Positions 7,526 through 63,894 of a DNA stretch of 64,000 bases are shown here, in pieces. Positions within the stretch are counted from its first letter, which is position 1, and each line of letters begins with the position of its first letter. The DNA comes from Sporopachydermia quercuum (taxonomy: Eukaryota > Ascomycota > Sporopachydermiomycetes > Sporopachydermiales > Sporopachydermiaceae). The notes under the pieces were generated by a model. It made no database searches, was not told where the DNA came from, and saw nothing but the letters and a program-made list of their open reading frames with translations. A program made the translations under genes and the position numbers. The DNA lies in assembly GCA_001599295.1 (NCBI GenBank), contig BCGN01000002.1:1302001-1366000 (forward strand), given 5' to 3'.

Positions 7526-8733
7526 TTGGTTTTCAGTTGGTTTCCAGCAAAACTGTTCAAATCTATTGAAAGATCCTTATCTAAAGCCCATATTGAATGT
7601 CCTGCTACTAATTTCAAATTACCGAACTGTCTCCTCTCCCATAATCCTGACTCAGAAGCTAGAGCTTTGGCTCTAGCTAGGTATGCTACTGTTAAGAAAA
7701 GAAGACCTTCTCGTCACAGCAGTAGAGGAGATCAAGATCCTTATACAGAAAACGGAAATCGTAGCGGTTATAGAGAGAATAACAGAAGCAGAAGAACTAG
7801 AGATTCATCGTCAAGGACAAGTTCGCGTTCTCGATCCAGACCTAGATCGAGATCGAGATCAAGGAGAACTTCAACCTCTACCACAGGAAAAACTCCAATA
7901 ACCCCTAGAACTCCTGGCTATCCTTCACCAACGGGGTGGGAAATGTTTAATAGATCTGCTAGTAATCCACAATCAAATACAGTACATAACTCTGAAATGA
8001 AAGAAAAAGCGAAAGAAGAAAAGAACACTCTTTATAACACCAGCGAAAGACATATGAGTGGAAGAACAGTAGATTTAGAAAACGCTCATGAGCAATGGCT
8101 GATAATGGTGATCGTGCTTATGAAACAAGGGGACCTTCAGAGCATGGAAGGAACAGTTTTGAAAGTAGAGAAATAGCTAGTTCTGCCAATGGTGTTGCTT
8201 TGGGTAAACGGAAACGTTGGAGATCGAGAGATGATGAATGGCAAGAGAGTCCTAGAAAAGAACCTAGATTTGGTGCTCATACGCCGGCAGCACAACGATG
8301 GAAGTCAACTGGAGGAGTTTTAAACCATGAGGATAACCCTGGGGATAACAAATATAGGAATGGCGATGATAATGAACAGAATCAGGATCAGAATCAAGAC
8401 AAGAATATGCCGGAAGCATCAGGGTGGATAAATGAGTCTGAAGATGAAGAAAATTTGTTCCCTATTCAAGTTAACTCTGGTACGGCCTTAGGAGCTCAAC
8501 AACGCATGAGTTATTTACAAGTGTTAGTAGATGTTATGAAAGTTGATGGTTTACAAGGATTTGTTCATAAAACAATGGATGAAGAAGCTTATATTGCTAG
8601 AAGGTTTTCTTCTAAGTTTAGGTATCATGATGAGGTGAGAAGGCTCATTCAACTAGTGGAAAATGGCCGTTGGGAAGAATGGTTGATTGATAAGCAAAAC
8701 GTCAAACAATCTGGTTGTTCTCGAACTCAAAAG

Positions 8734-8781
<48 letters not shown>

Positions 8782-9974
8782 TATAATGAAACGACCATCG
8801 AACAAATGTTTGATTTCTTTGGATATTCTTGAAGAGAATGAATATGTTACTACAATACCACAAGTTATAGTGGCAAAACAGCTTGAAGAAGAACGAGAAT
8901 TACAGCTCAAGAAGCAAGAGCGAATAGCAAAAGAACAAGAAGCTGAGTATAAGAAGAGAAAATATGAAGAAGCTCGTGCTGAAGATGTTATATTATTACA
9001 GAAGAAAGATGTAGCTGAAGCAACACTCAAGGCGAAAGAGAATAAGATTGTTGGTTCTCGAACGTATAATGTTTCTGTCAGTTTATTTCTCACTCAGCCT
9101 AAACATCTTGAAGATAAATCAACGGTTACTCAGAATAAAGTGAGCTGCGTTCGCTGTTCAACAAGTTTTAATCATGAACAAGATATTTGGGGAAGCACCT
9201 GTTCATTTCATTCTGGAAAATTAGGTATGTTTGTGAATTTCAATTTCAAGTTCAAGTTCAAGTGGTTGGTTAGAAGAGGTAGATTTGGTGCATACTTATG
9301 TTATTATTTGGATAGGAACTAACATAGTCGACAGAACGTAAGCATCAAATTAGAGTGTTCAGTTGTTGCCAAAGAAGCCAGGAAGCGAAGGCTGTAAAAT
9401 ATTCAAAACGCATGTGTTTGTTATGAAGAATGTTCATAAAAGGCATAACTGTATCCCGTATAGAGAAAGCACTGATTTAGTTACACCATCAACTAGAGAA
9501 GTTGTTGGAATGGACTGTGAAATGGCATATACACCATTGGGCTTAGAACTGATTAGACTCACTGTTGTAGATTTCCTTATTCGAGAGAAGTTGATTGATC
9601 GGTTGGTTCTACCAAAAGGCGAAGTTCTGGATTTGAATACTCGTTATAGCGGAGTCAATAGTTTGAACGAAACAAATCCAGATAAAGGGGGTCCTGCGAT
9701 TGATTTTGAAGAAGCACACCAGACATTAGCCTAATATGTCAATAGGGATACGATAATTATTGGTCATGCCTTAAATAACGATTTAAATGCTTTAAGGCTT
9801 GTGCATACCAAAGTGATTGATACTTCTATTCTTTATCCAATTTTCAATAGTAATAAGATGTCTTTGAAACGATTATCCGAGATGTATTTGAATCGCAAAA
9901 TCCAATCAAATACTCATGATTCGTTGGAACATGCTGTTGCTGCAATGGATATAGTACAGCTACATGTTGGGTAG
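7526..9974 (+). pseudogene. REX3: Decayed REX3-type RNA exonuclease gene
   Basis: Rex3 is a DEDDh 3'-5' exonuclease that trims RNase MRP RNA and other small RNAs; it is dispensable in yeast. Recognisable parts in order: a Cys/His segment (IECP...PNCLLSH) near 7590-7650; an Arg/Ser-rich disordered region; a coiled Lys/Glu segment near 8870-9050; a zinc ribbon (CVRC...CSFHSGK) before an intron at 9225-9334 with intact GTATGT donor and ACTAAC branch; FSCCQ just after it; ExoI (GMDCEMAYTPLG, 9510-9545); ExoII (IIGHALNNDLNAL); and ExoIII near 9915. The frame changes near 8095, across the 43-base C run at 8736-8778, and near 9375-9390, and a TAA at 9732-9734 interrupts ExoI-ExoII. ExoIII reads HDSLEHA where the family has HDSLEDA, so the fourth catalytic Asp is lost. 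No ATG start is seen; 7526 is only where the frame opens. Sequencing error could explain single frame changes, but not easily all of these. Confidence 0.8.
8736..8778 (+). repeat. Homopolymer of 43 C
   Basis: An uninterrupted run of 43 cytosines in otherwise AT-rich coding sequence. The REX3 frame before it and the frame after it do not agree, so its length is not a neutral insert. Either a real unstable tract or an assembly or base-calling artefact (poly-G calls on the other strand). Confidence 0.97.
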
Positions 9975-11498: not shown

Positions 11499-12846
11499 GG
11501 TTGTAGCTATTCTGATGTGCTTAGAATGATCCAATAAACGGATTATCTATAATTTATGTTTTATAAGTTCTTGATAATATGCTAGTGCAATAATAGTCTT
11601 CAACTGCTAGTTGAAGTGTGAAATAGTCTATTGCTATGGGGTACTTTGTTGTTTGGCGCTACTGGTATTTTGTTGTTTAAATTTCAATAATTCTACAATT
11701 TTTTGAATGTAAATCGTTTATTGCATTCATGCCAAACCTTTGCTACTCGCTATATTTATACTTCTTCACTTTCTTGAGTCTTCTCACTGCGTATACTTAT
11801 TGCTTTGTGCTTATTACTGTTGCTATTATAAGCAATCTGAGGATCTGCCTGCAACTCATCGTAGGGTCACAAGCAAAGGCTCCTTTTCATGTGATCGTCA
11901 TTTTATCAAAATGGTATTTATTTGAGCGTTTATAATATTCCTAAAAAGGATGTAATATAATAAAACTCCCATTTTGAAATGGTTGTCACGTCAACGAGAA
12001 CACAAATAAGTATGTAGGGAAACTTGAAGTCTGTTGCAATATTGTCACGTGTTTGTGACTACTTAACTAGTATATCACTGATTTTATGAGGAGACTCGAT
12101 GTATAACTCTTATTTGAATGAAAATTTTTAAATGATAAATTTGTGTGAAGCAGTTACACTTTTCTATTCTTGTTTATGGTAGCGATGAGAATGAATGTAC
12201 TGTGAATTGAAATATTACTGTTGATTTGAAGTTCGTGTAACTTTTTTGGGATTGCACTGGCGGACTTTTGTTTATTTGAGATATTCGAGTCGAGTAGTGT
12301 AGAGTATTAGTTGTTCATGGTTGTTGATTGAAGAACAATGTTGGTGATAGTCTGTCTAAGCTTGGTATTTAATGAACTAGTTCAATTATTTTTGGTGTAA
12401 AATAAGTGTGTAGATGTTGAAATGAGTCTTCTACAGCTCTATATATGAATTAGTCTGAATTGGAAACCAATAATTCATTAGTAAGGTAAGTTCAATGTTT
12501 TTCTTTCAAGATCGTCTTCGCTCAAGATGATAAGGCAAAGCTATTATTGATAATGAAATAAAGACCAATTGCTTGTTTATTATGATGATATTATGATATG
12601 TTGCTTGAAGATTAACGTCTATGTAAGCACAATGATTTCTCAATAGACTACAACGGTATCTGATATAAACAAGTATTGGTCCAAAGTCTTTGTTGTGGTG
12701 GTGATTAATGTATCTATTATTGAAGGCAAAGAGGTAACGCTCTTTGGTTATAAATACGTAATCATGATCAAATTTCTAACAAATAGTCAGAGAAGAGAAA
12801 ACATAATTTATTGACTAGAAACCTCATTATTAAGATATTTTCCATA
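11499..12846. other. Intergenic region between two divergent genes
   Basis: About 1.35 kb, AT-rich, serving as promoter for the coiled-coil gene and for SEN2. A CACGTG box lies at 12046-12051. The overlapping short open frames near 11729-11935 are hydrophobic by composition and have no recognisable family; I did not call them. Confidence 0.7.
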
Positions 12847-14055
12847 ATGAGTGCCTCGGTTCAAGAGTCTCCAATTAGGAGGAACAAAAGGACTCCATTA
12901 CATCAGCAGTATCCTGATCCTTTACCTATTAAAACGTATAACCTTCCTTTAATATCCCTTGATAATCCAATGACATTCTTACCATATATATACAAATTGG
13001 CTAAAATTCTGTATTCTGCATTCAGATCGACTAATGACGACCAAATATCTGTAAACGCAGATCTTAAATCACGTAATATGATTCTTGTTAGTATGGATAA
13101 AGATATGCAATTGTTATGGAAAATGGGTTTTTTCGGTAAAGGTAATCTTTCAAGATCTGAAGCTACTTGGAGAGGTAGAACAGCAAGAAGATTAGGACTT
13201 TTCACTGAAGATAAATTATCACCAGAAGAAATCACTGCTTTGAGACGGAAACAAAGAGCTGATTTCAAAACTCTGAGGGCGAACGTCGAAATTTACACTA
13301 TTCAACTGAGGAAAAAAGTCGATGCTGGTGAAATTACTGCACAAGAAATGGGATCTATGGTTGAGAAAGCGGAAGCTGAATTGTCGAGACCAATGGGAGG
13401 TTATGTTGATGCTCAAGAATTGTTAAATGAGTCTCTGAAGGATCAAGTTGTTGATAGAGCTAAATGGAGAAATGAAGATAAGGTTATTGTTAATGAGGTC
13501 AACGCAGTTACTGATTTGGAGAAGCTAGAATTAATGCCGTGTGAAGCTTTCTTTCTTAGTTATGCAGTGAATATTCTCCAGGTTTCATATAACAATAAAC
13601 AACTGGATCATTCAGAACTGTTCTTGAAGCTTTGTCGGTCTTACTTGCCTGATGATGGTTTCATCATTTACTACATAGCGTATCATTATTATCGATCTCT
13701 AGGCTGGTGTGTCCGTTCTGGTGTGAAATTTGGTTCAGATTTTTTGTTGTACAAGAGAGGGCCACCATTTTCCCATGCTGAGTTTGCAGTGATTATTTTA
13801 CCTCAGAGCAAGAATAAAGAACAAATAAATAAGATCAATGGGAAACCTTGGAACTGGACAACTAATATTTCAAGAGTCATTGGTGGTGCTAAGAAGACGT
13901 TGGTCTTTTGTTATGTTGAATATCCTGATGATATCTCGCAGTATAAGACTCTTGTCGAAGATAAACCAGTGATTGATTTTCCTTCATTTTTGAGGGCCTA
14001 TAAAGTGACGGATATTGTATATAGACGATGGGTTCCCAACCGTAATCGGGACTGA
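12847..14055 (+). CDS. SEN2: tRNA-splicing endonuclease catalytic subunit Sen2
   Basis: Sen2 cuts the 5' exon-intron junction of pre-tRNAs within the Sen2-Sen34-Sen15-Sen54 complex, which in yeasts sits on the mitochondrial surface. The product is 402 residues from the ATG at 12847 (Saccharomyces Sen2 is 377). The frame is open twelve codons further up but without an ATG. The C-terminal endonuclease fold is clear: YHYYRSLGWCVRSGVKFG, then the YKRGPPFSHAEFAV loop with the catalytic Tyr and His, and a later RVIGGAKKTLVF carrying the expected Lys. The upstream helix-rich part (KMGFFGKGNLSRSEATW) is also a fungal Sen2 hallmark. Single exon. Confidence 0.93.
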   Translation: MSASVQESPIRRNKRTPLHQQYPDPLPIKTYNLPLISLDNPMTFLPYIYKLAKILYSAFRSTNDDQISVNADLKSRNMILVSMDKDMQLLWKMGFFGKGNLSRSEATWRGRTARRLGLFTEDKLSPEEITALRRKQRADFKTLRANVEIYTIQLRKKVDAGEITAQEMGSMVEKAEAELSRPMGGYVDAQELLNESLKDQVVDRAKWRNEDKVIVNEVNAVTDLEKLELMPCEAFFLSYAVNILQVSYNNKQLDHSELFLKLCRSYLPDDGFIIYYIAYHYYRSLGWCVRSGVKFGSDFLLYKRGPPFSHAEFAVIILPQSKNKEQINKINGKPWNWTTNISRVIGGAKKTLVFCYVEYPDDISQYKTLVEDKPVIDFPSFLRAYKVTDIVYRRWVPNRNRD

Positions 14056-16057: not shown

Positions 16058-17058
16058 TTAACGACCTAAGTTGAGCAATAAAGAAGAAGGTGTGCTACCT
16101 TGGCCACCAGAACTTGAACCTGAAGGCAAGTATGTAACGTTTCCTGATTTAGCAAGAGTACTAGCAATTTCTTTGGAAGCTTCAATACGTCTGATCAACA
16201 ATAAACCATCACCCGCTTTATCAAGAGCTTTAGAAATGTGTTCTGCGGCTTCAGCTTCACCCTCAGCTCTGATAACGGAAGCTTGTCTCTCTTGTTCAGC
16301 TTTCTGCACAATAAACAATGCTCTTTCAGCATCTTGTTGAGCGATTTGCTTTTGCTCAACAGCTTTAGTGAACTCTTTACCAAATGTCATATGAGTTATG
16401 GAAACATCTTCTAAATGAATATGAAACTCTTGTGCTCTTTTATTCAATTCCTCTCTGATTCTGCTGGATACAACTTCTCTTTGAGTGATTAGTTCTGCCG
16501 CGTCAAATTGAGCTACAACACTCTTTAGAATTTCATTTCCAATTGATGGTAGCACTCTTTCATCATAATCTAAACCTAATGACTGATAAATGGTAGGCAA
16601 ATATAAAACATCAGGTCTGTGAAGCACACGTAAGTTGAGAGAAACTGTTTGCAAATCTTTACTACCGGTAGTCGTAGAGATAGATCTTGGTTTGGTTCTA
16701 ACATCAAAGAAAATGGCCTTCTGAAGACCAGGAACTAAGAAATGAGTTCCTTCACCAACAACAACCTGCTTCACACCCGATAGCCTATCAAAAATGACTG
16801 CTCTTTGACCTCCCTTCACATCGTACATGGCGTAAGGCACCACTGAAAAGCCAATTATAGCAGGTGCAGCGATCTCTATCCGTTTGTTAGTTAACTCTTA
16901 GATCATATTAATTGACGACAAATATTCCAATTCTTCAAAGTAACACTTTAGATCATTTAATCGTTTTCTAACAACAAACAATCGTCACCCACCATCAATA
17001 AATTCGCCCTGAGAAATCATTACTTACTTGAAAGAAAACCAAGAATACGTTCAGCCAT
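16058..17058 (-). CDS. PHB1: Prohibitin 1
   Basis: Phb1 forms the ring-shaped prohibitin complex of the mitochondrial inner membrane with Phb2; it holds newly made proteins and restrains the m-AAA protease. Two exons, 17058-17028 and 16875-16058, give 282 residues (Saccharomyces: 287). The intron (17027-16876, 152 bases) has donor GTAAGT and branch TTAACTAAC, and splits codon 11 in phase 1. Exon 1 plus the start of exon 2 encode the hydrophobic membrane anchor ([19 protein letters not shown]). The PHB core follows: [56 protein letters not shown] coiled coil with [13 protein letters not shown] comes next, then the typical C-terminal LLLNLGR. Confidence 0.97.
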
Positions 17059-23548: not shown

Positions 23549-24015
23549 TCAAAACTCATCCTCCTCTTCGCCAAAATACCATATAAACGTAAGAATACTA
23601 ACATAAATAAGAAACCCTCCAGTGACGCACATAAATGTTTCTAATGCAGCAAGAAGACCAACATGGAACATCATCATTGGAAATAGTATACCTGTAATAA
23701 CTAAGAATCCGGTCAGCCATTTACTAAAACCTCCATTGTTCGAGCTGACATCAAAATCATCGAACGATGAGTGAGCAGCAGCAATTGCATTTGGTAAAGG
23801 CGCTATAAGAAATATGAATACTATAAGGTAAATTTGTTAGAATTCAGGTGGTGAAGAAGATAAAATCTCAGCTTCAAATAGAAGTACGTACCATCAATAA
23901 GTGGTAGATAGTTTGAGGGATTGGGCAGAGCGCAGGATAGGATTATCAGAACAAACCCTGCTGCTAGCACAGTTGATAGTGAGACAATCTTGGACAATGG
24001 TTTTATCTCCGACAT
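23549..24015 (-). CDS. VPS55: Endosomal membrane protein Vps55
   Basis: Vps55 works with Vps68 in late-endosome to vacuole traffic and is related to mammalian OB-RGRP/LEPROT. Exons 24015-23892 and 23820-23549 encode 131 residues (Saccharomyces: 140). The intron (23891-23821, 71 bases) has donor GTACGT and branch TTCTAAC, and joins ...LPLID to VFIFLIAPLPNAI, the conserved junction. Four hydrophobic spans are visible: VLAAGFVLIILSCAL, VFIFLIAPLPNAIA, WLTGFLVITGILFPMMMF and TFMCVTGGFLIYVSILTFIW. An upstream in-frame ATG at 24087 would add 24 residues; I chose 24015 because MSEIKPLSKIVSLS aligns with the yeast start. Confidence 0.92.
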
Positions 24016-24529: not shown

Positions 24530-26880
24530 TTATTTTTCTTCGGTGGTGTTGTTACTATCCTTGTTAGCTTCAGCATCTCTCTTCTTGTAAACCTCTTCAA
24601 AAACCTTGAGGGAAGATTCTTGGATTTCAGTAGACTTGGACTTGATTTCTTCAGGGTCAACTTCTTCACCAGCTTGAGCTCTAGCAATGATTTCTCTTAA
24701 CTTGGCAATGTCATCCTTTAACTTATCAGCAGAGGTCTTGTCGACTTGAGCTTCAAATTCTTTCAAGGAGTTTTCAGTGTCGTTACAAATGGAGTCAGCT
24801 CTGTTGGCGCTTTCGATAGCTTCCTTTCTAGCCTTATCTTGTTCCTTGTATTTTTCAGCGTCGTTGACCATCTTTTCGATTTCACTGTCAGACAAACCAG
24901 AAGAGCCTGCAACAGTGATGGAAGCATCCTTATTGGTGGTCTTATCTCTGGCAGAAACATTGATAATTCCGTCAGCGTCAATGTCGAAGGTAACTTCGAT
25001 TTGAGGAACACCCTTAGGAGCAGGAGGAAGACCAGAAAGTGTGAAGTTACCGATCAATTTGTTGTCTCTAACCAATTCTCTTTCACCTTGGAAGACTCTG
25101 ATTTCAACAGATGTTTGACCAGAAGCAGCAGTAGAGAAGATTTGAGATTTCTTTGTAGGGATGGTAGTGTTTCTATTGATCAATCTAGTGAACACACCAC
25201 CTAAGGTTTCAATACCTAAAGAAAGAGGAGTGACATCAAGTAATAAGACATCCATGACTTCACCGGCCAAAACGGCACCTTGAATGGCAGCACCGATAGC
25301 AACGGCTTCATCGGGATTGACAGCCTTCGAAGGTTCTCTACCGAACAAAGACTTGACGGTTTCAATAACCTTTGGCATACGAGACATACCTCCAACTAAG
25401 ATGACCTCGCTGATGTCAGAAGTGGACAAAGAAGCGTCCTTCAAGGCCTTCTTGACAGGGTCAACAGTTCTCTTGATCAAGCTCTCGGTTAAAGATTCAA
25501 ACTGAGCTCTAGAGATCTTGGTGTTGATGTGCTTAGGTCCAGAAGCATCAGCAGTGATGAAAGGTAAGTTGATTTCAGTGTTAACAGTAGATGAAAGTTC
25601 AATCTTGGCCTTTTCAGAAGCTTCTCTGATTCTTTGAATGGCCATACGGTCATTTTGTAAATCAATTCCAGTCTCCTTTTTGAATTCTTCAACCAAGTGT
25701 CTGACTAAAACGATATCGAAATCTTCACCACCCAAGTGGGTATCACCATTGGTAGCCTTGACTTCGAAAACACCGTTATCGATATCAAGAATGGAGATAT
25801 CAAAAGTACCACCACCAAGATCGAAAACAGCAACAACTTTTCCATCGTTCTTATCTAAACCATAAGCCAAAGCAGCGGCAGTAGGTTCGTTGACAACTCT
25901 GAGAACGTTCAAACCAACGATTTGACCAGCGTCCTTGGTAGCTTGACGTTGAGAATCGTTGAAGTAGGCAGGAACGGTAACAACAGCGTTCTTGACGGTC
26001 TTACCGAGGTAAGCTTCAGCAGTTTCCTTCATCTTGTTCAAGACAAAACCACCGATTTGAGCAGGTGAGTAAGTTTGTCCTCTTGCTTCTAACCAAGCAT
26101 CACCATTAGAGTGCTTGACGATCTTGTAAGGAACCTGCTTGATATCTCTTTGCACTTCAGCATCTTCCCATCTTCTACCAATAAGACGCTTGGTGGCGAA
26201 CAAGGTATTTTCAGGGTTGATGACGGCTTGTCTCTTAGCAGGAATACCAACTAATCTTTCACCTTCCTTTGTGAAAGCAACGACAGATGGAGTAGTTCTA
26301 GCACCTTCAGCGTTTTCAATGATCTTGGGAACCTTTCCTTCCATAATTGCAACAGCGGAGTTGGTGGTACCCAAGTCGATACCGATCACAGCACCTTGGA
26401 CCTTAGCATCAGCGTAAAATCTTGGTGCAAATACAGGAGTAATAGGCTTCCTTAAAATTGGCTATAATTTTGTTAGTTCAAAGTCCAAAATACATTAAGA
26501 TAGCAAATTAGTTCTGTGGGGGTTTCATTGATAGTGGTCATATGAATATATGGATTTTTCAGTAAATGACGCCTCACTTTCCTCTAAAATTGATTGAAGA
26601 TTATAAATCATTTGGTTCCTCCTTCTCAATACTGTTTCTGGTTCATACATTCCTTTTGCCCTGACCTTACGAGTTTTCTCTTCCCATCAATCCAATTAAT
26701 ACTAATCTGTCAAACATTTCAGTCTTCCACTGGAATACCTCGATCAATATAACCATAATATTCGTTTAGGCATATGACAATTCAATGATACCTCTCACTT
26801 CCTACTATCAATCTACTATTAAGAAAAGAAAAAATCCTTACACTTCTGAAGGCCGATCTGGCGAATCTTTGAGCTAGCAT
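24530..26880 (-). CDS. SSC1: Mitochondrial Hsp70
   Basis: Ssc1 is the matrix Hsp70, the motor of presequence import (with Tim44, Mge1 and Pam16/18) and a folding chaperone. Exons 26880-26842 and 26461-24530 encode 656 residues (Saccharomyces: 654). The intron (26841-26462, 380 bases) has donor GTAAGG and branch GAACTAAC and falls inside the presequence, [13 protein letters not shown] joined to [15 protein letters not shown]. The nucleotide-binding domain opens with [19 protein letters not shown] and contains [19 protein letters not shown]. The peptide-binding domain has [19 protein letters not shown]. The C-terminus ends in an Asn/Thr/Glu-rich tail as in mitochondrial Hsp70s. Synonymous codon use is strongly biased (TTC, AAG, GGT), in keeping with high expression. 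Confidence 0.97.
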
Positions 26881-28809: not shown

Positions 28810-29915
28810 ATGTCTAGCGAAGAACTGATTACGCAGGTTGAATTCCTTATTGAATGTTTTCAAAAGATTGATCATCTACTTTCATTGCATTTTTTTCGTT
28901 CTACGTCACCTTATCCTTTCTCAAAGCTCCGTGAAAACGTGAATAAATCGTTATTCAGTGGGATATTCACTCAACACCATTTCTCAATCATACTTGCCAT
29001 ATACCCAGCATGCTACACTGTTCAAGATGCTTACTGCTTGACAAACAACCAAGATACGTATCAATTACATGAAGACAAATATTCATTTTCAGTTTTACCA
29101 CCAAAAAATGTTGCCCCATGGGAAATGACAAAGTTAGGTAATGAAAGACGAATACAATTCACATCTAAAGCAGTCAAGATAATGAAANNTGGTGGTCCTT
29201 TACCGGTATTTGATTTCAGCTGTTTGCTACCTAGAATCTCTATGACGAAAAGGAAATCAGATCGTGATATTTCAGAATCGATGGTGAAAGTTAAGAAAAC
29301 TTTTGTTATTCAAGACGAGAGCGTATTATTAGAAAAAGTATGTTCAAGTGCTTCTATCCCTAAATAAAGTAATAGCAATTGTAGGTACCTACAGCCGCTA
29401 TTAACAATCAAATACGATTAGATACTAACAGGAATCAGATACGAGCAAAAGAACAGTTGAAAAATCAGTCACCGCTATCAAAAGAAGATAAATATAAAAG
29501 TTTCATCAAAGCTAAAGCACCACAAGTTTTAACTATCTTGTCTTTGTAAGTATCAATCACTGGAATGGAGTTCTAATACTTCCCCTTGAATTACTAACAA
29601 ACAANCATTCATATTTATAGACTTGAACCATCTCAGTCAAAGGCAAAAGCGTACTCATATCAAGAATTAACGAAGAGAGTTTCTGATTCATTGGCACTGG
29701 CCAAACAACGAAACGAGACGCATTTAAGTAAAGATGAGATACACGATATATTTGAAGTACTAGAACAAACAGTTCCTGAGTTTTTGCAGGTGATTCAAAT
29801 GACTGGCGATAGTAAAGATATAACAGAGAATAAGGAAAGATGTTGTGCTATCAAGCTGGACTTTCCGCGAGGTATTCAGGCATTGGAGTTGTTTCGGAAA
29901 AGAGTGAAAGGTTAA
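28810..29915 (+). CDS. CDT1: Replication licensing factor Cdt1
   Basis: Cdt1 loads the Mcm2-7 helicase at origins together with ORC and Cdc6. Exons 28810-29337, 29385-29545 and 29621-29915 encode 327 residues, shorter than Saccharomyces Tah11/Cdt1 (604) or S. pombe Cdt1 (444). The first winged-helix region is seen in LFSGIFTQHHFSIILAIYPA, which fits the Cdt1 pattern of an F-T-x-x-H segment before IYP. The last exon has the C-terminal Mcm-binding winged helix (YSYQELTKRVSDS ... SKDEIHDIFEVLEQTVPEFL). Intron 1 is only 47 bases with donor GTATGT and no clear CTAAC (CCCTAAAT is the best candidate). Intron 2 has GTAAGT and TTACTAAC. NN at 29188-29189 falls in exon 1. Overall similarity is modest, so the name rests on domain order and motifs. 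Confidence 0.75.

Positions 29916-29973: not shown

Positions 29974-30009
<36 letters not shown>
29970..30009. repeat. Trinucleotide microsatellite (GTA)n
   Basis: About a dozen GTA/TAG units between the convergent CDT1 and SPF1 stops. Non-coding. Confidence 0.9.
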
Positions 30010-30057
30010 TAATCAATCTCTAACATTTAATTACATACATCTATCGTATATACAACT

Positions 30058-33000
30058 TCATTGATCCTTTTTACTTTCTTTCTCACTCTCATTCGCAACG
30101 CTTTGAACAGTTCTAACAGCAATATCTGATGGTTTGAAATCAGCGAAGAAAAACTTCAATCCAATCTCAATCAAATAACTAATAACAAAATCTAATATCA
30201 TAGTAACTGTGAGCTTGAATTTGAACAAATCTGTCATTGGAACAAATTGCATAGCTTCATTCAACTCAGGAATAAATTCTGTTGATCCTGCTAATGATAA
30301 TGCTGCAACTCCTAATAATCCGTAATACATTCCTTTGTTTTCACTCAATCCTTGTCGGAATGGTCGGCCTTGATAATTGCAGACAAATGTTGAAACATTC
30401 AACGATAATTGCAATAAGAAAATCGCCGTACATAGCAATGACGGTTCAAACTCTCCATCTAAATCAACGGCTTCTTTCCTTGGCTCAATTTTATAAACTT
30501 CATTAGCAACATAAATAAATGAGGCAATATGAACAACGAATTGTCCAATAATTGATCCCATAATGTAAATATTGAAGATACCTGGTTGAGGTCTTTGAGC
30601 TGATAGTTTTTCAATAGATTTTGATCTTGAGATACTCAAGAAACACACAGATAATAAGATTCCTGAAGCTGTTTGTTGGGTGTCACCATATTTAATTCCT
30701 GCAAGGTATAAAACTGATAATGAGTAAGCAGAAATCAGACAATTCAGTGCTAAAATCTTATACATTTGAATCGTTGAAACAAGGGCACATCTACCTTGGC
30801 GAATGATATGAGCAACAGCAGAAACGTTCGCTAGTTTTGAAGTGAAAGGTGCAGCAACTGAAGCATCACCAAGTTTCAATTGGGGAGGTTCTCCATCTTC
30901 ATCCAACATGTCAGTTAACTTATCAGCAAAAGCAGCTGATTTCTGTTCTGCAGTTTCAACATTTGAGGAATTTTCAAGCTCTTTTCTAATCTCTGCAAGA
31001 GTATTTTCATCTAAAACAATACCTTTCTCTTGCATAACCGTCAAATAATGAGGATTATCAACTCCCGGTGGATATAAATGAGCAATAGCTTTTGGCACAG
31101 GAGGAACTTTCCCATTGGGATTCCATTTTTTCATTAATTCTTTCTGCTTCTCATACGTCTTTTGAAGTCGGTCAGATTTGGCATTTTCAATCATCTTTTG
31201 CATACCCTCAGAAGTACCATTAAGTAAAGCAACTCCTACATCAGCTTGTTTAAGAGCTCCAACATCATTGGTACCATCACCACACATTAAAGTCATATAT
31301 CCTAACTCTTTTAATTGGGTCAGAATGAATTCCTTTTGAGAAGGCGAAACTCTGGCGTAGATCCAAGTATGACGAATGAGCTTCTTTAACTGTTTGTGAG
31401 ATTCTAATTTGGCTAGTGCATGTCCGCTCACGCAGATATCGTATTTATCAAATAAAGATTCGTCAATATCATCATTAGCATTAAGAGGAATAATGATTGA
31501 TTCATCAACGGTTCTCCATACTAAATCATGATCAGTTTTCACCAGTAAAGTTTCATCAGGCTGATCAATGATCAGTACTTCTCTTTCGGTAATGGCAACT
31601 TCCTTCGCAACATGACAGGCAGTTAAAGGATTATCACCAGTGATCATCACACATCTATGAGAAGATTCATTAAGCATTTGAATAGTTTCAATTGCATCTT
31701 CTTTTAAAGGACAGTGGAAAACGAGAAATCCTCCAAACTCAAGCTTGGATTCAATTTCCTTCCTATCAAAATTATTCACCTTCTTAGCTGTGATGTTATC
31801 GTTGAGATATTTATATCCTAATGCTAAAACACGAGATCCGCTTCTGGTGAATGATTTGAAGGTTTCATCGTAGTTTTCTGGAACAGACACCAACATTTGT
31901 TTGATAGTTTCTGGTGCACCTTTAACACCAACAATTGTCTTCGCTCCATAGGAAGCAATACTGGAAGATCTCTTCAAAGCAGAGGAAAATTGAAATCTAC
32001 GTAAGATTTTAACATGTTCAGCGTTAGGAATAGAACCAGGTTTTTGATTCGATTGTTTCTTCCTTTTAGAAGCATCTACCTTATAGCAAACATCGTTTTC
32101 ACCGACTGTCCACGAAATGGCATTCAAAGTAGCCTTTTCTAAAGGATCACCGACGATATCACCATCGTCCAGAAGAACTAGAGCATGGGCAGAAGCTAAG
32201 GTCAAAATTGTATGTTTAGGAACGTCATCAACGCCTGAGAGCTGGGTGAGATTTTCATTGAAACCAGCAATACCTTCAAAGACCAAATCTTCACCAGTAA
32301 GAGTACCAGTTTTATCAAAACAGCAAACATCGACTCTTCCAGCATATGGAATTCTAAATGGCTCAGTACAGTATATGTAGAATTTACCTAAAGCGGCCAA
32401 TGAATTGTTAACAGCAATTGTAAGTTCCATAGGCAATTCTGGAGGTACGACCGAAGTAATAATAATGACACAGTCTAAAAGCAATTTGGATCTCTCACGG
32501 TCGATTTTAACACCTTCTTTCCAAACATACCAACTAGCGGCAATAGCGAATTGTAATAAGAAAAGAATGAAAAACATAGCTTCTTTGTTACCAACGCCAA
32601 CTCTTTCGGTTGAAAAAATCATTACTCTAACTAAAGATCCTTGAGACGTTTCAAACCCAGTTTTGGTGACAACAGCTAAAGCGCCATCATCAGGGGGAGC
32701 AGAAATCTTTGGTGCAACAGGTTTTGTTATTTGCAGTACTTTGGTACCACCATGAAGTATGGAATTTTTGTCAAGGCCTTCGGGATCAAAACTGTCTTTC
32801 GGATCTCTTAGAAGGAGAGATTCTTTCAATAAAGGAGTCGATTCACCAGAAAGCATTGCTTCGTTAACAATAGCAGTTCCGTCTAATAGGATCAAATCGC
32901 AAGGCAAAACTGATTCTTCTGTTGAACGTAAGACGGAAACAACATCACCAGGGAGCAGATCATCAGTCTGACGCTCTTGCCATTCACCATTACGATACAC

Positions 33001-33926
33001 ATTTATTGCATAGGGTTTAACGCCCATACCTCGGAACTCCATGAGAGTAGCTCTTCTTTGGAAGACGACAGTTCCTTCAAACATAACAAGCATAAACAGT
33101 GTAAACAAGGAATAATACCAATACTCATCAAGTAGCCATAAGCCGACACAGAAGATTTGGAAGACAAAGAAAGGAGCAACAGCATGTTCTTTGAACAGTT
33201 CAGAAAATGATGGCACTGGGATATCAAATCTGTTTTTACCATACATTCTCATCATTTTCTCGGGATTTCCAGTCAATCCAACAGAATCCTGGAAATCTTT
33301 GATAGTAGGCTTTGAATCAACAAAGAATTCGGGCGGTGAGAAAGAATCAGTAGTTGCATCATATAGAAATCTCCTCTTTTGATAGAGAAAAGAGATTTGA
33401 GCTTCGTCATCTTCGAATTCATCACGGAAAATAGTACAAATATCACCAACTCCACAATTGGGTGCTGGCAGAATTTTGATCATATCAGCCTCATCAACAG
33501 AGTTTACTTTGATACCTTGGAAAGCAGCTTTGATGTTAATATTCCAGAATGGCATCAACCAAAGTAGCAATTGTAAAGAAACAATTGTTCCTAAGTAGAC
33601 AGTGGTCCATTCTCTTCCGTTTATATACTCTTCATAATGATTGACAAAAATGTGAAAGAAAAAACCGTATAAGAAGACGAATGGCCAAACATGAGGTCTT
33701 TGAATAAGAGGTCTAGGCTTTAGAAGCGTTGCTTCTACGATGGTTGGGTTTGGCACGAGCCTTGGAAGCTCAGCAGCAGGTTTGACCGCCCTAGAAAAAG
33801 AAATGTTAGCCGCTCAGCCAATTCAAATGTAGGAGGAAAGCCCCAGCGGTTCCATATAGCAGTATAATCAACAGAGAATAATAGTAATGATAAGCAGGCA
33901 GATCCAAGGGTAAATAACACATACAT
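30058..33926 (-). CDS. SPF1: ER P5A-type ATPase Spf1, start codon split by an intron
   Basis: Spf1 is the ER P5A ATPase (ATP13A1) that removes misinserted tail-anchored and signal-anchored helices. Exon 2 (33790-30058) carries nearly all of the 1244 residues (Saccharomyces: 1215). It has no usable ATG in its first 100 bases: ATLLKPRPLIQRPHVWPF is preceded only by an open frame back to a TTTTTCTAG acceptor. The donor GTATGT at 33924-33919 directly follows AT at 33926-33925, and splicing yields ATG GCG GTC AAA, so the start codon is AT|G. The intron is 134 bases with branch GGCTAAC. Domains: N-terminal hairpin of two membrane spans; actuator loop MLSGEST; phosphorylation motif CFDKTGTLTGEDL; MITGDNPLTA; hinge MCGDGTNDVGALKQADVG; six C-terminal spans. 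The region IIITSVVPPELPMELT is the P5A signature in span 4. Confidence 0.95.
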
Positions 33927-35435
33927 CTTAAAGTAGGTTCCAGGGTTCAATCTCTACTGGTTATTTGAAAACAATAGTCAAAAATTCAATAGGAATATCA
34001 GCTGGTGGAGTTTCAGCTTCTAGGTAAAGTGAAGAGATAAATGGAATGGCTGTTGATGGAGCTTGAAACAATTATTTGAAAGGTGTTCAGAATGACAGAA
34101 AGGCGACCGAACTGATGGAAAATTTGATTGAACGCTGCATGCAGTAACGATGCGGGAATATGCATGAATATGCATGAATATGCAATTAAAGACACAAAGA
34201 ATTTTGGGGGTGTACACGAGACAAAATAATTATTAATAGAGTTAGACTTTAGAGCATGCTATTGCATGATGGTACATTCACAGTGGTGTATGACATCTAG
34301 TTGTAATTAGCAATTTTGGGTTAGAGATAGATTAATGGTGGAATGGACTATTGCTCAGTAAGAATGAAACTTTATTGGATTGTGATAGGGAAGGCAGAAA
34401 ATATTGTGAATGAATGAAAGAATTAATGTGAAAGATTGGTTAGTCTATCGTAATTGACTAGGTAAATGGCTCCATTGAGACTGTCATCTTGAAGTAGTAT
34501 ATTATTTTCGTCGAATCACATACTGAGTGACATGATCTAGTTTAGCATTTAATCCATATGTAAAAAGTTTCAGTTTCTACAGACGCATAGTGATCACGAC
34601 AGAAAGGCTGACCAAAAATTTGAGACTAACACATTTGGGGAACGCATTTGGGGCTTGAGACTCGTTCAATGAAACTGACTAGAACCTTTACATAATTCCT
34701 GAACAGCTAGAGGGGAATTGATACTTTAGTACTAAACCATGTCTTTTGTTGATTCTAATTAACAAATAATGGATTCTAATTGATCATGAATTCATGCAAA
34801 AGTTACTATTTTCACAGCATTCCTGATGACTAACCTAAACTACCACTACCACAGCACACATACAAAAAAATGTGATTCTTTTCTTTGCTTTTCTTTTTCT
34901 CATTACTCTACGGCGTAACTACCATCATTATGTATCAGGTTCAACCAGTTCCCACCTTCTCTCTTTCGACAACAGTCTTTTGCAGGCACTTTCTCAAGCC
35001 ACGCTAAGAACATCCTACTGAAATAAACCTTATTTTGTTAGTTCCAAAATATGCAGGTACAGAATTTAAAGTTGTTCTGTTACTGATTCTTAAATAACCT
35101 TTTTCGCTGAAATTGTTATGAAACTGATTCGAAATCAACATTCAATATGATTGTCTTCCTACAAGAAGGATTTACAATTACGATAATTTAAACATAGAAG
35201 ACATATATTAATTGCAACAGTAACGATTAAAATGACACCCAAATGAAAACAAAGAAATGAAGACAAAATAAAAAAGAGAAGAAATCAAGTATTAGATATT
35301 AATCAGTAAATCGATCAGTTACTCCCCGAGAACGCCTACCCAAGCAACATATTTATCCCATTTATTATACAACCAAAACCTAAGATTTACCATTTAAACC
35401 TTTATAACCAGCCAGTTTTCTCGAAAATTCTGGCA
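33927..35435. other. Intergenic region
   Basis: About 1.5 kb: SPF1 promoter and 3' flank of the zinc-binding regulator gene. It contains three tandem GAATATGCAT/A words at about 34154-34185. No gene seen. Confidence 0.6.
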
Positions 35436-44383: not shown

Positions 44384-47300
44384 TCAGTACTTCAGCCTTC
44401 TTTCCATTTTATTCCCATTGTCTTGAATAAGCTTAGCAAGCTTTGTTTTCTGAAAGTTGAATGATGGATCAACTACACACATTGGGTCATTTAGTAGTTC
44501 TTTTGCTGTTGGCCGTTTCTCNGGATCACTGGAATTTCAATGTTAGTAATCAGACTAAATAGCACTACATAGTAATCAAACAGTAATCAAATATTTACAA
44601 CAATAAATGATCAGCCAATCCTTCTTTCCCCTAGCAAATATACTTACATATTACAACACTCCTGAAGAATGAAGTTCTGAGCATCTTTCGAAACATACGG
44701 AAGAATATCAGAAGGAATTGGTGGTCCCCGCTTTTCACTAGCAACCATAAACATGGCACTGAGAGCTTCTCTCTCCGACCAAGGTCTTCTACCAGCAAAC
44801 ATTTCTAGAACGACACATCCTAAAGACCAGATATCAACTTTAGCGCTGTAGCCTTGTTTTTGGTCGTTTCTTACGCTATCCATGACTTCAGGGGCCATCC
44901 AGAAGATGGATCCTTGCATGAATGAGTTTTCTTCATCGGCATAGGCGTCTCCTATAACGGGAAAGTTAGTGGATGAATTCAGATTCCGGAGGCGGAAAGC
45001 ATAATTGATAGGCTTTAAATGAGGTTTCAAAGATAATTAATACGTACTGCTTCTTTTGGAGATACCGAAATCGGTAATTTTGCACACCCCGTTCAAATCG
45101 AGTAATAGATTATCCGCTTTTAGATCCTATTGTGGTTTTTGTTAGTACACTAATTGTGGTTCAAAATGACTGTTAGCCACAGATAAACTGGAAATGATCT
45201 CAGTAGAATAGAAACCAATAAACCTGAAATCATAGCATAAAAATAGTCTCCAATTCGCTCCGGTATCATTCCCATTTCCCTGTTCCCATTCCCATTCCCA
45301 TCCCCATTTCTGTTCCTTCTGTATACTTACTCTATGCAGAATACCATTAGCATGCAAATATGCCAAACCTTTCAACACCTGCGCTAATAAAAACCTAATC
45401 AAGCTCTCATCAAACCTTCCATAAGCCTTTATGCACGTTCCAATTGACCCTCCAGGAACGTATTCTAGAAACAAACTATAAAAGTTGTCCTTTTGTTCGA
45501 AACCTAAATACTGGACCACGTTCACGTGATTCAAATCCTTTAAAGTTTCAACCTCGGACGTTAACGCATCAACTAAATCGGCTACTCGGCTTCTCGCCAA
45601 CGGATGTTTGGGAACCTCCACCTGTTTTACTGCCATCATTTCACCAGTAGTAATGTTCATGGCAATGAACACTTTAGCAAATGTCCCTTTCCCTATTAGT
45701 TCACCTTTCACCCAAGCCATTGGCCTGTCCTTGGTATCTGTTGTTGTGAGCAAAGCTGTGACTGCGCTTTTATTCTTTGTATCGTTTGGTTTCACTTCAA
45801 TTACCTTTTGGCCCCATAGTTTTGTACTGGTGCGTCTAAGGATAGCACCCGAAGAACCCGGCAAAGGAGTGCTTGCCATAGTGATTTTCCGTCTTGCTTC
45901 ACTTGCTTCTCTTGCAACCACGCGTATACTTTTCATTCTCCGATGTAAGCCGGTATTATTTCCGGTATTGGCGGGTTTGTCTTTATTCCGAAGTTTATTG
46001 TTGATTAGGTGATCACTACTATTATCTTCTCCAGGATTTCCCAGACCGGAATCCATGGAAGTATTGCCCGAGTTATTATTTGCGCTTTTAAGGTTCAGCT
46101 TCCGTTTATTCAAACCGTCCATTTTAGGGGAAATGGGCGAAGGAAGCAGTCCTTCTGCCACAATTGGTTGATCCAGATCCGTATCAGGAAAGAACTTTTC
46201 CAAATTCTTATATAAAACGTCTTCTGAAGGTCTCATTGCCCAATTACTACTTTCAAGTGGAGTCACTTCATCTCCTCCGGTTTTATGATTTCCGCTATTG
46301 TCAGAACTAGCGGTGCTGCTATTACCATTGTTGCAGCTATTGCTATTACTATTCCTATTACTATTGCCATCTTCTCCGTCTNTTACCCTCGCAGGGCTTG
46401 TCACTACAGGCCGTTTAGCCCATAGGCCATCATCGGATTCATCAGTGGAAACGCCTTCCGAACCGTCGGATTCCTCATTGGGAACGTTATCAAAGTTAAT
46501 TTCGTTTTCCCTAAACTGTTCGTCTGTTGGCCGTTCTAGGGTACTAACGAATCGTTTTGAACTTTTGCGGCGAACGAAGTTATCGCTATAGTTTCCGCTT
46601 CCATATTCGCTCCCCCTTTCGGGTTCTGAGTTACTACTTCCGGCAGTAGACACAACTGTGGCTGAGCTAGTGGTGCTATTACTGTTCATAGAATGAGTAG
46701 CTTTCAGATTCTGGTTTCCAGGNAGCCTTGGAGGTGGAGGGGGTGCAGCCCGCTTGGCTATAATACTCTTATCCTCATAAGGCGATAATCTTCGTTGGTC
46801 AAAGTCGATTTCCTTCTTTCTGAGTACTCGGAAGGATTCATTTCCGGTAGGAGAATGTGTTTTGGTTACCTGCTTGATGAGAGAAGCGCCTTGCTCTTTC
46901 AGCTGTTTCGTGGTCATTCCNGAGCTTGAGGAGGGGAAGGGAGTTAATTCGGCCGAGTTATGGTGTTTTCTGGCTGCTGTGGCAGAGTTGGATGCTTGGC
47001 TGTCAAAAGCGGAATGGCCAGATATGGCTTGACTACCTGGTTTAGAGGCTCCATGAATTTTGTTGTTGATAGCGTTAACCAGCGTTGCCGAATTAGGAGC
47101 TTGCGGCGGTTGTGGTGGCTGTGGCGGTTGTGGCGATGGCGTATCTTCGCTACTTCCAGTAATAGCACCACTATTTTCGCCAGCATTACCGCCTGCACCG
47201 CTTCCTGAGCCCCAAGCACCCTTCGGAGGCTTCTTCTGTAACCCGGCTTTATCCCGCTCACTCCTATCCGAATTTCCTTTATTTCCATANGTCTTATAGT

Positions 47301-62079: not shown

Positions 62080-63894
62080 ATGACACATTCAATTCTACTA
62101 CAAACAATCCTGATATGCTGCCTGTTAAGGCTGGGTCTTTCATTTCCTGTCGATTTGAGGTCTATTTTGTCGGAAACGTTTTCTGCTTTGGACCATCCTT
62201 TTCTCTCATACTCCAACGATAAAGAGCCTATTGAGACAGATCTCACGGGACGAAAGATAGCATCATTCTCATCTCCACGCAAACTGAAAGGAAGGTTTCT
62301 GCATATAACTGGTAAGTCAATTCGAATTTTGCATTTATAAATATCTTAATATTTCTGAGAAGACTGGTACTAACNGAATGTGAAAACAGATATTCACCCT
62401 GACCCTTACTACTTGGCAAACACTAATACTAACGACGAAGAGTTATGTCATTTTGGCAAAGGAGATGCAGGCGAATTCGGAACACCCCTTTCAGGATGTG
62501 ATGCGCCGTATTCATTAGTCAATGGCACCTTTGATTGGATCAAGGAAAACTTGGCTGATGAGATTGACTTTATTGTGTGGACAGGCGACAATGCTCGTCA
62601 TGATAACGATAGACGTCTTCCGCGTAACTCTGCACAAATCATCCAACTGAACAAGTTTATTGCCAGCAAATTTGAATCAGTTTTCGCAAATCCTGTTACA
62701 GGCTTATTGGATATACCTATAGTCCCTAATATTGGAAATAATGACGTTTTCCCTCATAATGTGATGTCTGAGGGACCATCTAAATTAACAAGACAACTTT
62801 ACTCTGTATGGAATAGATTTCTACCACAAGAACAGTTTCATATCTTTGAGATCGGTGGGTATTTTGTTTCGGAAGTTGTTCCAAACCAGTTAGCTATCAT
62901 TTCGCTAAATACTCTTTACTTTTATAAGCAGAACCCTTTTGTCGACAATTGTGATGAAAAATCACAACCGGGCAGAAAGCAATTTGAATGGTTAGGATTG
63001 ACATTAGAAGCACTACGGAAAAGAGGAATGAAAGCTTGGGTAATTGGCCATGTTCCGCCCGTACCAAAGAATTATGACCAGTCATGTCTGAGAAAGTACA
63101 CATTATGGATGACAGAGTTTTCTGATGTTGTAGTTGGTTCAATTTTTGGTCATATGAATGTTGATCATTTCGTACCATTAGATGGTATCCAAGCCTATGA
63201 CTTAAGAGTCAATCCTATTCATCGAGGCAAAGGGGAGAATGGAACTCACGATGGCGATGATGATGATGACGATGATAGTGACGACGCTGAAAATAAAATG
63301 TCTATTGAAGATAAAGACTTGCTCACGTTAAAGCCCCTTCAAGCTGGAATGGATTATTTTGACGATTTGTTAAAGTCATTCAAGAGGATAGACATAAATG
63401 AACTTTTGGCACCTAGAAGCTCGCAGTTTGCTGTAACTATAGTCTCACCATCTGTTGTTCCTAACTTCTATCCTTCTCTGAGAGTTTACGAATATAACAT
63501 TACAGATGTTAAAGAGCAAACAGAACAATTCGAACCTTGGGCGAGGGTTTATGACAAGTTCGAAGAAACTGCCAAAAAGAAAGATATATCTGAACCACCA
63601 TTACGGAGGTTAAACGAAACATTTGGTGCTAATGGGTTTGGTCCAGGGTACGAAGAACAGACTTGGACTGCAACAAGGTATATACAATACTACGCCAATC
63701 TAACTGACAATACCGATTACCAAGTTGAGTACTCATCAGATGTCTCACCTTACAATATGAAGTCTCTGATAGTGGAAGAATGGATAAAACTTGCTGAACG
63801 GATAGTAAAAGATGAGGATTTATGGGATGCATTCGTGCAACGAGCTTTCGTTAATACTGGATTTCACGAATCAAATGAGTTTTTAGATGTATGA
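62080..63894 (+). CDS. PPN1: Vacuolar endopolyphosphatase Ppn1
   Basis: Ppn1 cuts long polyphosphate chains in the vacuole lumen; it is a type II membrane precursor cleaved on maturation. Exons 62080-62311 and 62390-63894 encode 578 residues (Saccharomyces: 674). The 78-base intron has donor GTAAGT and branch TACTAAC; splicing completes the Asp of the metal-binding FLHITDIHPDPYY motif. Residues 4-20 (SILLQTILICCLLRLGL) form the N-terminal anchor. The calcineurin-like core has VWTGDNARHDND, PNIGNNDVFPHN, WVIGHVPP and SIFGHMNVDHF. An acidic Asp-rich insert (about residues 365-380) follows, then the conserved C-terminal region with WTATRYIQYYANLT. The start at 62080 is the first ATG in frame. 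One N at 62375 lies in the intron. Confidence 0.94.

Follow-up and report, generated by a model that had tools for sequence, protein, structure and literature searches.

Where does a conserved protein begin when the reading frame that encodes its N-terminus has no ATG ahead of it? This question is posed by a minus-strand gene in a 64-kb window (the whole stretch of DNA analysed, 64,000 nucleotides), the spliced product of which is a 1,244-residue P5A ATPase of the ER (SPF1). The top PDB matches of the protein read from its second exon were fungal Spf1 proteins, with nearly full-length alignments to S. cerevisiae Spf1 (1,597 bits) and to 8op3, another fungal P5A ATPase (1,527 bits). Homology to S. 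cerevisiae Spf1 (PDB 6xmp, 9s5t) extends over essentially the whole length, starting from residue 12-13 of the spliced protein opposite S. cerevisiae residue 6-7, and the N-terminus here is about six residues longer ahead of the aligned part. The Pfam family PF23143, the P5A-specific N-terminal two-transmembrane hairpin, was found at residues 27-96 and the P-type ATPase core is also present, which places the product among the P5A ATPases. The CTG codons of the gene stand opposite leucine at 7 of 8 ungapped positions in the alignment to S. cerevisiae Spf1; the standard code therefore fits this yeast, and an alternative genetic code was dropped. An (ACT)n-type trinucleotide microsatellite lies directly downstream of the SPF1 stop codon (29975-30015). 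To our knowledge, SPF1 of S. cerevisiae has no intron.

The initial annotation had observed that no ATG precedes the conserved N-terminus in exon 2, and this was borne out: without splicing, the frame of exon 2 is closed upstream by a TGA, with no ATG between this stop and the exon. The first in-frame ATG within exon 2 is codon 80, and a start at Met80 would cut the PF23143 hairpin, so the true start must lie farther upstream. We went through every GT between exon 2 and the neighbouring gene, a distance of 1,645 nt. Just one GTATGT or GTAAGT donor there brings an ATG into the frame of exon 2, and this donor follows directly upon the dinucleotide AT. On the minus strand the layout reads ...CTACTTTAAGAT|GTATGTGTTA...GAGCGGCTAACATTTCTTTTTCTAG|GGCGGTCAAACCT, with the donor GTATGT at 33924-33919, a CTAAC branch core 14 nt from the end of the acceptor TAG (33793-33791), and the G at 33790, directly after the acceptor CTAACATTTCTTTTTCTAG, opening exon 2 (Table 1). 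Joining the two exons gives MAVKPAAELPRLVPNPTIVEATLLKPRP..., that is ATG GCG GTC AAA CCT, and a protein that begins MAVKPAAEL. The same junction, AT before GTATGT and G after the acceptor, had been put forward in the initial annotation, and re-reading confirmed every base of it. Thus the conserved N-terminus has a single plausible in-frame ATG, which straddles a splice junction, and the SPF1 start codon is most likely assembled by splicing as AT|G, the intron interrupting it in phase 2; splicing itself is predicted here from the intron signals and the reading frame.

Table 1 Features of the SPF1 locus (positions in the window)
Feature	Position	Strand	Basis or remark
Probable 5' leader, 213 nt, no ATG, ends at split start codon	33927..34139	-	
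Exon 1 end: AT, sole coding bases of exon 1	33925..33926	-	read from sequence
Spliceosomal intron, 134 nt	33924..33791	-	signals seen; splicing predicted
Exon 2: third base of start codon and remaining SPF1 codons with stop	30058..33790	-	
63-codon ORF of unspliced RNA (MYVLFTLGSACLSLLL...)	33735..33926	-	TAG stop at 33737-33735

To judge how readily such an arrangement arises by chance, we used Markov-shuffled upstream DNA. An in-frame ATG combined with a GTATGT or GTAAGT donor at 50-400 nt occurred in 7.4% of shuffles, and AT immediately before such a donor in 3.0%, both rates being computed without demanding the CTAAC core or its 14-nt spacing. By itself, the donor match is therefore only suggestive. 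The case for AT|G becomes strong because the donor coincides with the CTAAC core at 14 nt, with the frame that is needed and with 213 nt of ATG-free sequence ending exactly at this start. ATG-free stretches of this length arose in 1.2% of shuffles, and none of the 1,295 sliding windows of 213 nt in the remaining intergenic region was free of ATG; these 213 nt probably represent the SPF1 5' leader. Judged from these combined features, the split ATG is almost certainly the true start of SPF1.

In an alternative reading, SPF1 begins in some other upstream exon, or at a near-cognate codon of the unspliced RNA, and the AT|G is coincidental. The intergenic region of 1.5 kb does leave room for a further exon, and a GTATGT at 34523 could also join the SPF1 acceptor; however, the ATG closest upstream of that donor does not share the frame of exon 2, and within 1.6 kb there is no other GTATGT or GTAAGT donor with an in-frame ATG, so that a search for an upstream coding exon over this distance returned no candidate. 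One candidate near-cognate codon is an ATT in the frame left open past the TGA, from 33813, but ribosomes on unspliced RNA would have to bypass the AUGs at 33926 and 33922 to use it, and a near-cognate start was dropped as less simple. Overall, we consider a start elsewhere quite unlikely.

The intron resembles its neighbours in the window. Nine further introns, of 71-380 nt, are supported by reading frame and homology, in PHB1, SSC1, VPS55, PPN1, a BCK1-like kinase gene (three) and a CDT1-like gene (two). PHB1, VPS55 and SSC1 were named by family search (Band_7, Vps55 and Hsp70, respectively), and the names PPN1, BCK1-like and CDT1-like come from inspection of the translations alone. Their donors are GTAAGT, GTATGT, GTACGT or GTAAGG and their acceptors TAG or CAG, and each has its CTAAC core 9-22 nt before the intron ends. 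The SPF1 intron conforms to this local type in its consensus donor, CTAAC core and YAG acceptor, and its removal restores a conserved frame; one point against a typical intron is its branch site, GGCTAAC, where most others in the window have (T/A/C)ACTAAC. We found no other credible split ATG in the window. One weak candidate of 90 aa, with an ATG ahead of a donor and lying antisense to another gene, was rejected.

The loci that carry these introns lie at 16058-17058 (PHB1), 23549-24015 (VPS55), 24530-26880 (SSC1), 62312-62389 (PPN1), 44529-45330 (BCK1-like) and 29338-29620 (CDT1-like), and with many genes in the window having 5' or multiple introns, this yeast, in which CTG is read as leucine, is fairly intron-rich. 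A C/D-box snoRNA, snR79 (Rfam RF01184, 89.3 bits), is located at 12578-12665 on the plus strand, just upstream of a tRNA-splicing endonuclease gene (12847-14055), and may sit within the leader of the latter or in a 5' intron; candidate GTATGT...CTAAC...TAG introns around it span 12010-12786 and 12486-12786. Elsewhere, a run of about 14 proline codons falls within 8690-8832, and two ORFs overlap there (8095-8832 and 8786-9322). This points to an intron, a frameshift or an assembly error in repeat length, affecting one or more genes that either include a REX-type exonuclease or lie upstream of it. The window also contains 40 scattered N characters, several of them in coding exons (for example in the BCK1-like and MCM genes).

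What would the unspliced RNA encode? The initial annotation had given a 63-residue peptide from the ATG frame of unspliced RNA, and our translation returned exactly that peptide. From the same observation it had drawn a regulatory switch, in which splicing decides between the ATPase and the peptide; the splicing-built start in this proposal stands, while the switch itself loses its footing, with the peptide statistics at chance and the ATG automatic. Any intron that begins with G will yield an ATG when it follows AT, and this accounts for the ATG at the same spot in unspliced RNA. A GTAAGT donor would read ATG TAA when unspliced, a stop that GTATGT avoids. We compared the peptide with simulated introns, either of the composition pooled over introns or of the SPF1 intron's own composition, which is 42% T. 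The frame stayed open through the intron in 6% (pooled) and 23% (own composition) of simulations, and among these open cases an overall hydropathy of at least the observed 0.52 was reached by 25% and 83%, and the best 19-residue hydropathy of 2.0 by 9% and 33%, respectively. The final third of the peptide is simply exon 2 read out of frame. No Pfam family matched the peptide, and no structured RNA was detected around the split-start site (folding against shuffled sequence, z = 0.79).

It could still be imagined that intron retention under some condition, such as ER stress, yields a functional 63-residue membrane peptide in place of the ATPase. Consistent with this, the frame is open over all 134 nt and on into exon 2, the N-terminal part of the peptide is strongly hydrophobic, and in PHB1, SSC1 and VPS55 translation of the unspliced form would end within the intron. 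The SPF1 intron is stop-free in the translated frame, a minority state given how scarce such introns are in Y. lipolytica (PMC2911113), and this formally leaves room for a coding role. Yet an open frame is expected in 6-23% of such introns, the hydropathy is what a 42% T intron gives by chance, and the peptide matches no Pfam family. Furthermore, the passages on start-codon introns in a 2026 survey of Yarrowia lipolytica describe this class as efficiently spliced and as varying little in expression (PMC13309789), which argues against a switch. We therefore regard a functional peptide as very improbable, and least credible of all is the fuller scheme in which regulated retention at AT|G diverts one AUG from Spf1 to a small hydrophobic peptide of the ER, with feedback on ER function. 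Another possibility is that splicing efficiency sets the level of Spf1, with the unspliced RNA serving merely as a substrate of nonsense-mediated decay and the peptide having no function. Any retention would abolish Spf1 through the frameshift, decay of transcripts that retain a 5' intron is described in passages of an earlier Y. lipolytica report (PMC2911113), and splicing efficiency in that yeast shifts with carbon source and growth phase according to passages of the 2026 survey (PMC13309789). Nevertheless, both the donor and the branch core of the SPF1 intron match the consensus, and no sign of condition-dependent splicing was seen here; we consider this possibility rather unlikely. Only the unsupported switch would carry wider interest.

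In our view, this is very probably an ordinary spliceosomal intron in an uncommon position, where it splits the SPF1 initiator codon as AT|G and leaves the retained RNA a dead end. The spliced mRNA, beginning AUG GCG, would produce the 1,244-residue transmembrane-helix translocase. If the intron were retained, the AU together with the G of the intron would give an AUG whose frame ends after 63 codons, and ribosomes would then meet out-of-frame AUGs (ATGs at 33692, 33635 and 33610) before Met80, so little or no working ATPase would be expected. With about 3.7 kb past its stop, such an RNA would probably be removed by nonsense-mediated decay, a prediction that also draws on general knowledge and on passages of the Y. 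lipolytica work (PMC2911113). Because the start codon is split by the intron, Spf1 could be produced from spliced RNA alone, and its expression would be strictly splicing-dependent, as with other 5' coding introns. Retention thus most likely yields a dead-end RNA with a shifted frame rather than a peptide switch, and the 63-codon ORF is probably a by-product, its peptide presumably without function.

Introns at the far 5' end of coding sequences are a familiar bias of hemiascomycete genes, and SPF1 shares this position as well as the GTATGT/CTAAC/TAG signals; PHB1 and SSC1 are placed similarly in the window, with 31 and 39 nt of coding sequence before the intron. In contrast to these introns in general, the one in SPF1 splits the start codon itself. 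Our phrase searches for literature on split start codons returned two relevant reports, both on Yarrowia (PMC2911113 and PMC13309789), and no relatives were found in the genome-contig and viral-contig collections searched. In their passages on the subject, the earlier report gives 47 Y. lipolytica genes in which the first coding exon is the lone A of the ATG (A|TG) and notes that stop-free introns are scarce (PMC2911113), and the 2026 survey assigns 42 introns to a start-codon class, lying after the A, T or G (PMC13309789). SPF1 is not named in these start-codon passages of either report. The likeness lies in an intron within or right at the initiator codon (PMC2911113; PMC13309789). As far as these passages go, it is the A|TG form that is singled out in Y. 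lipolytica, whereas SPF1 has AT|G, and the mostly GTGAGT donors of that yeast, with a branch point about 1 nt from the acceptor, differ from the GTATGT donor and 14-nt spacing seen here. For annotation, the consequence is that a gene finder that accepts only unbroken ATGs would place the SPF1 start at Met80 and lose the P5A-specific hairpin. The SPF1 gene is a further example of an already known gene layout, in a yeast with non-Yarrowia intron signals, and contributes an AT|G case to the known class of start-codon introns.
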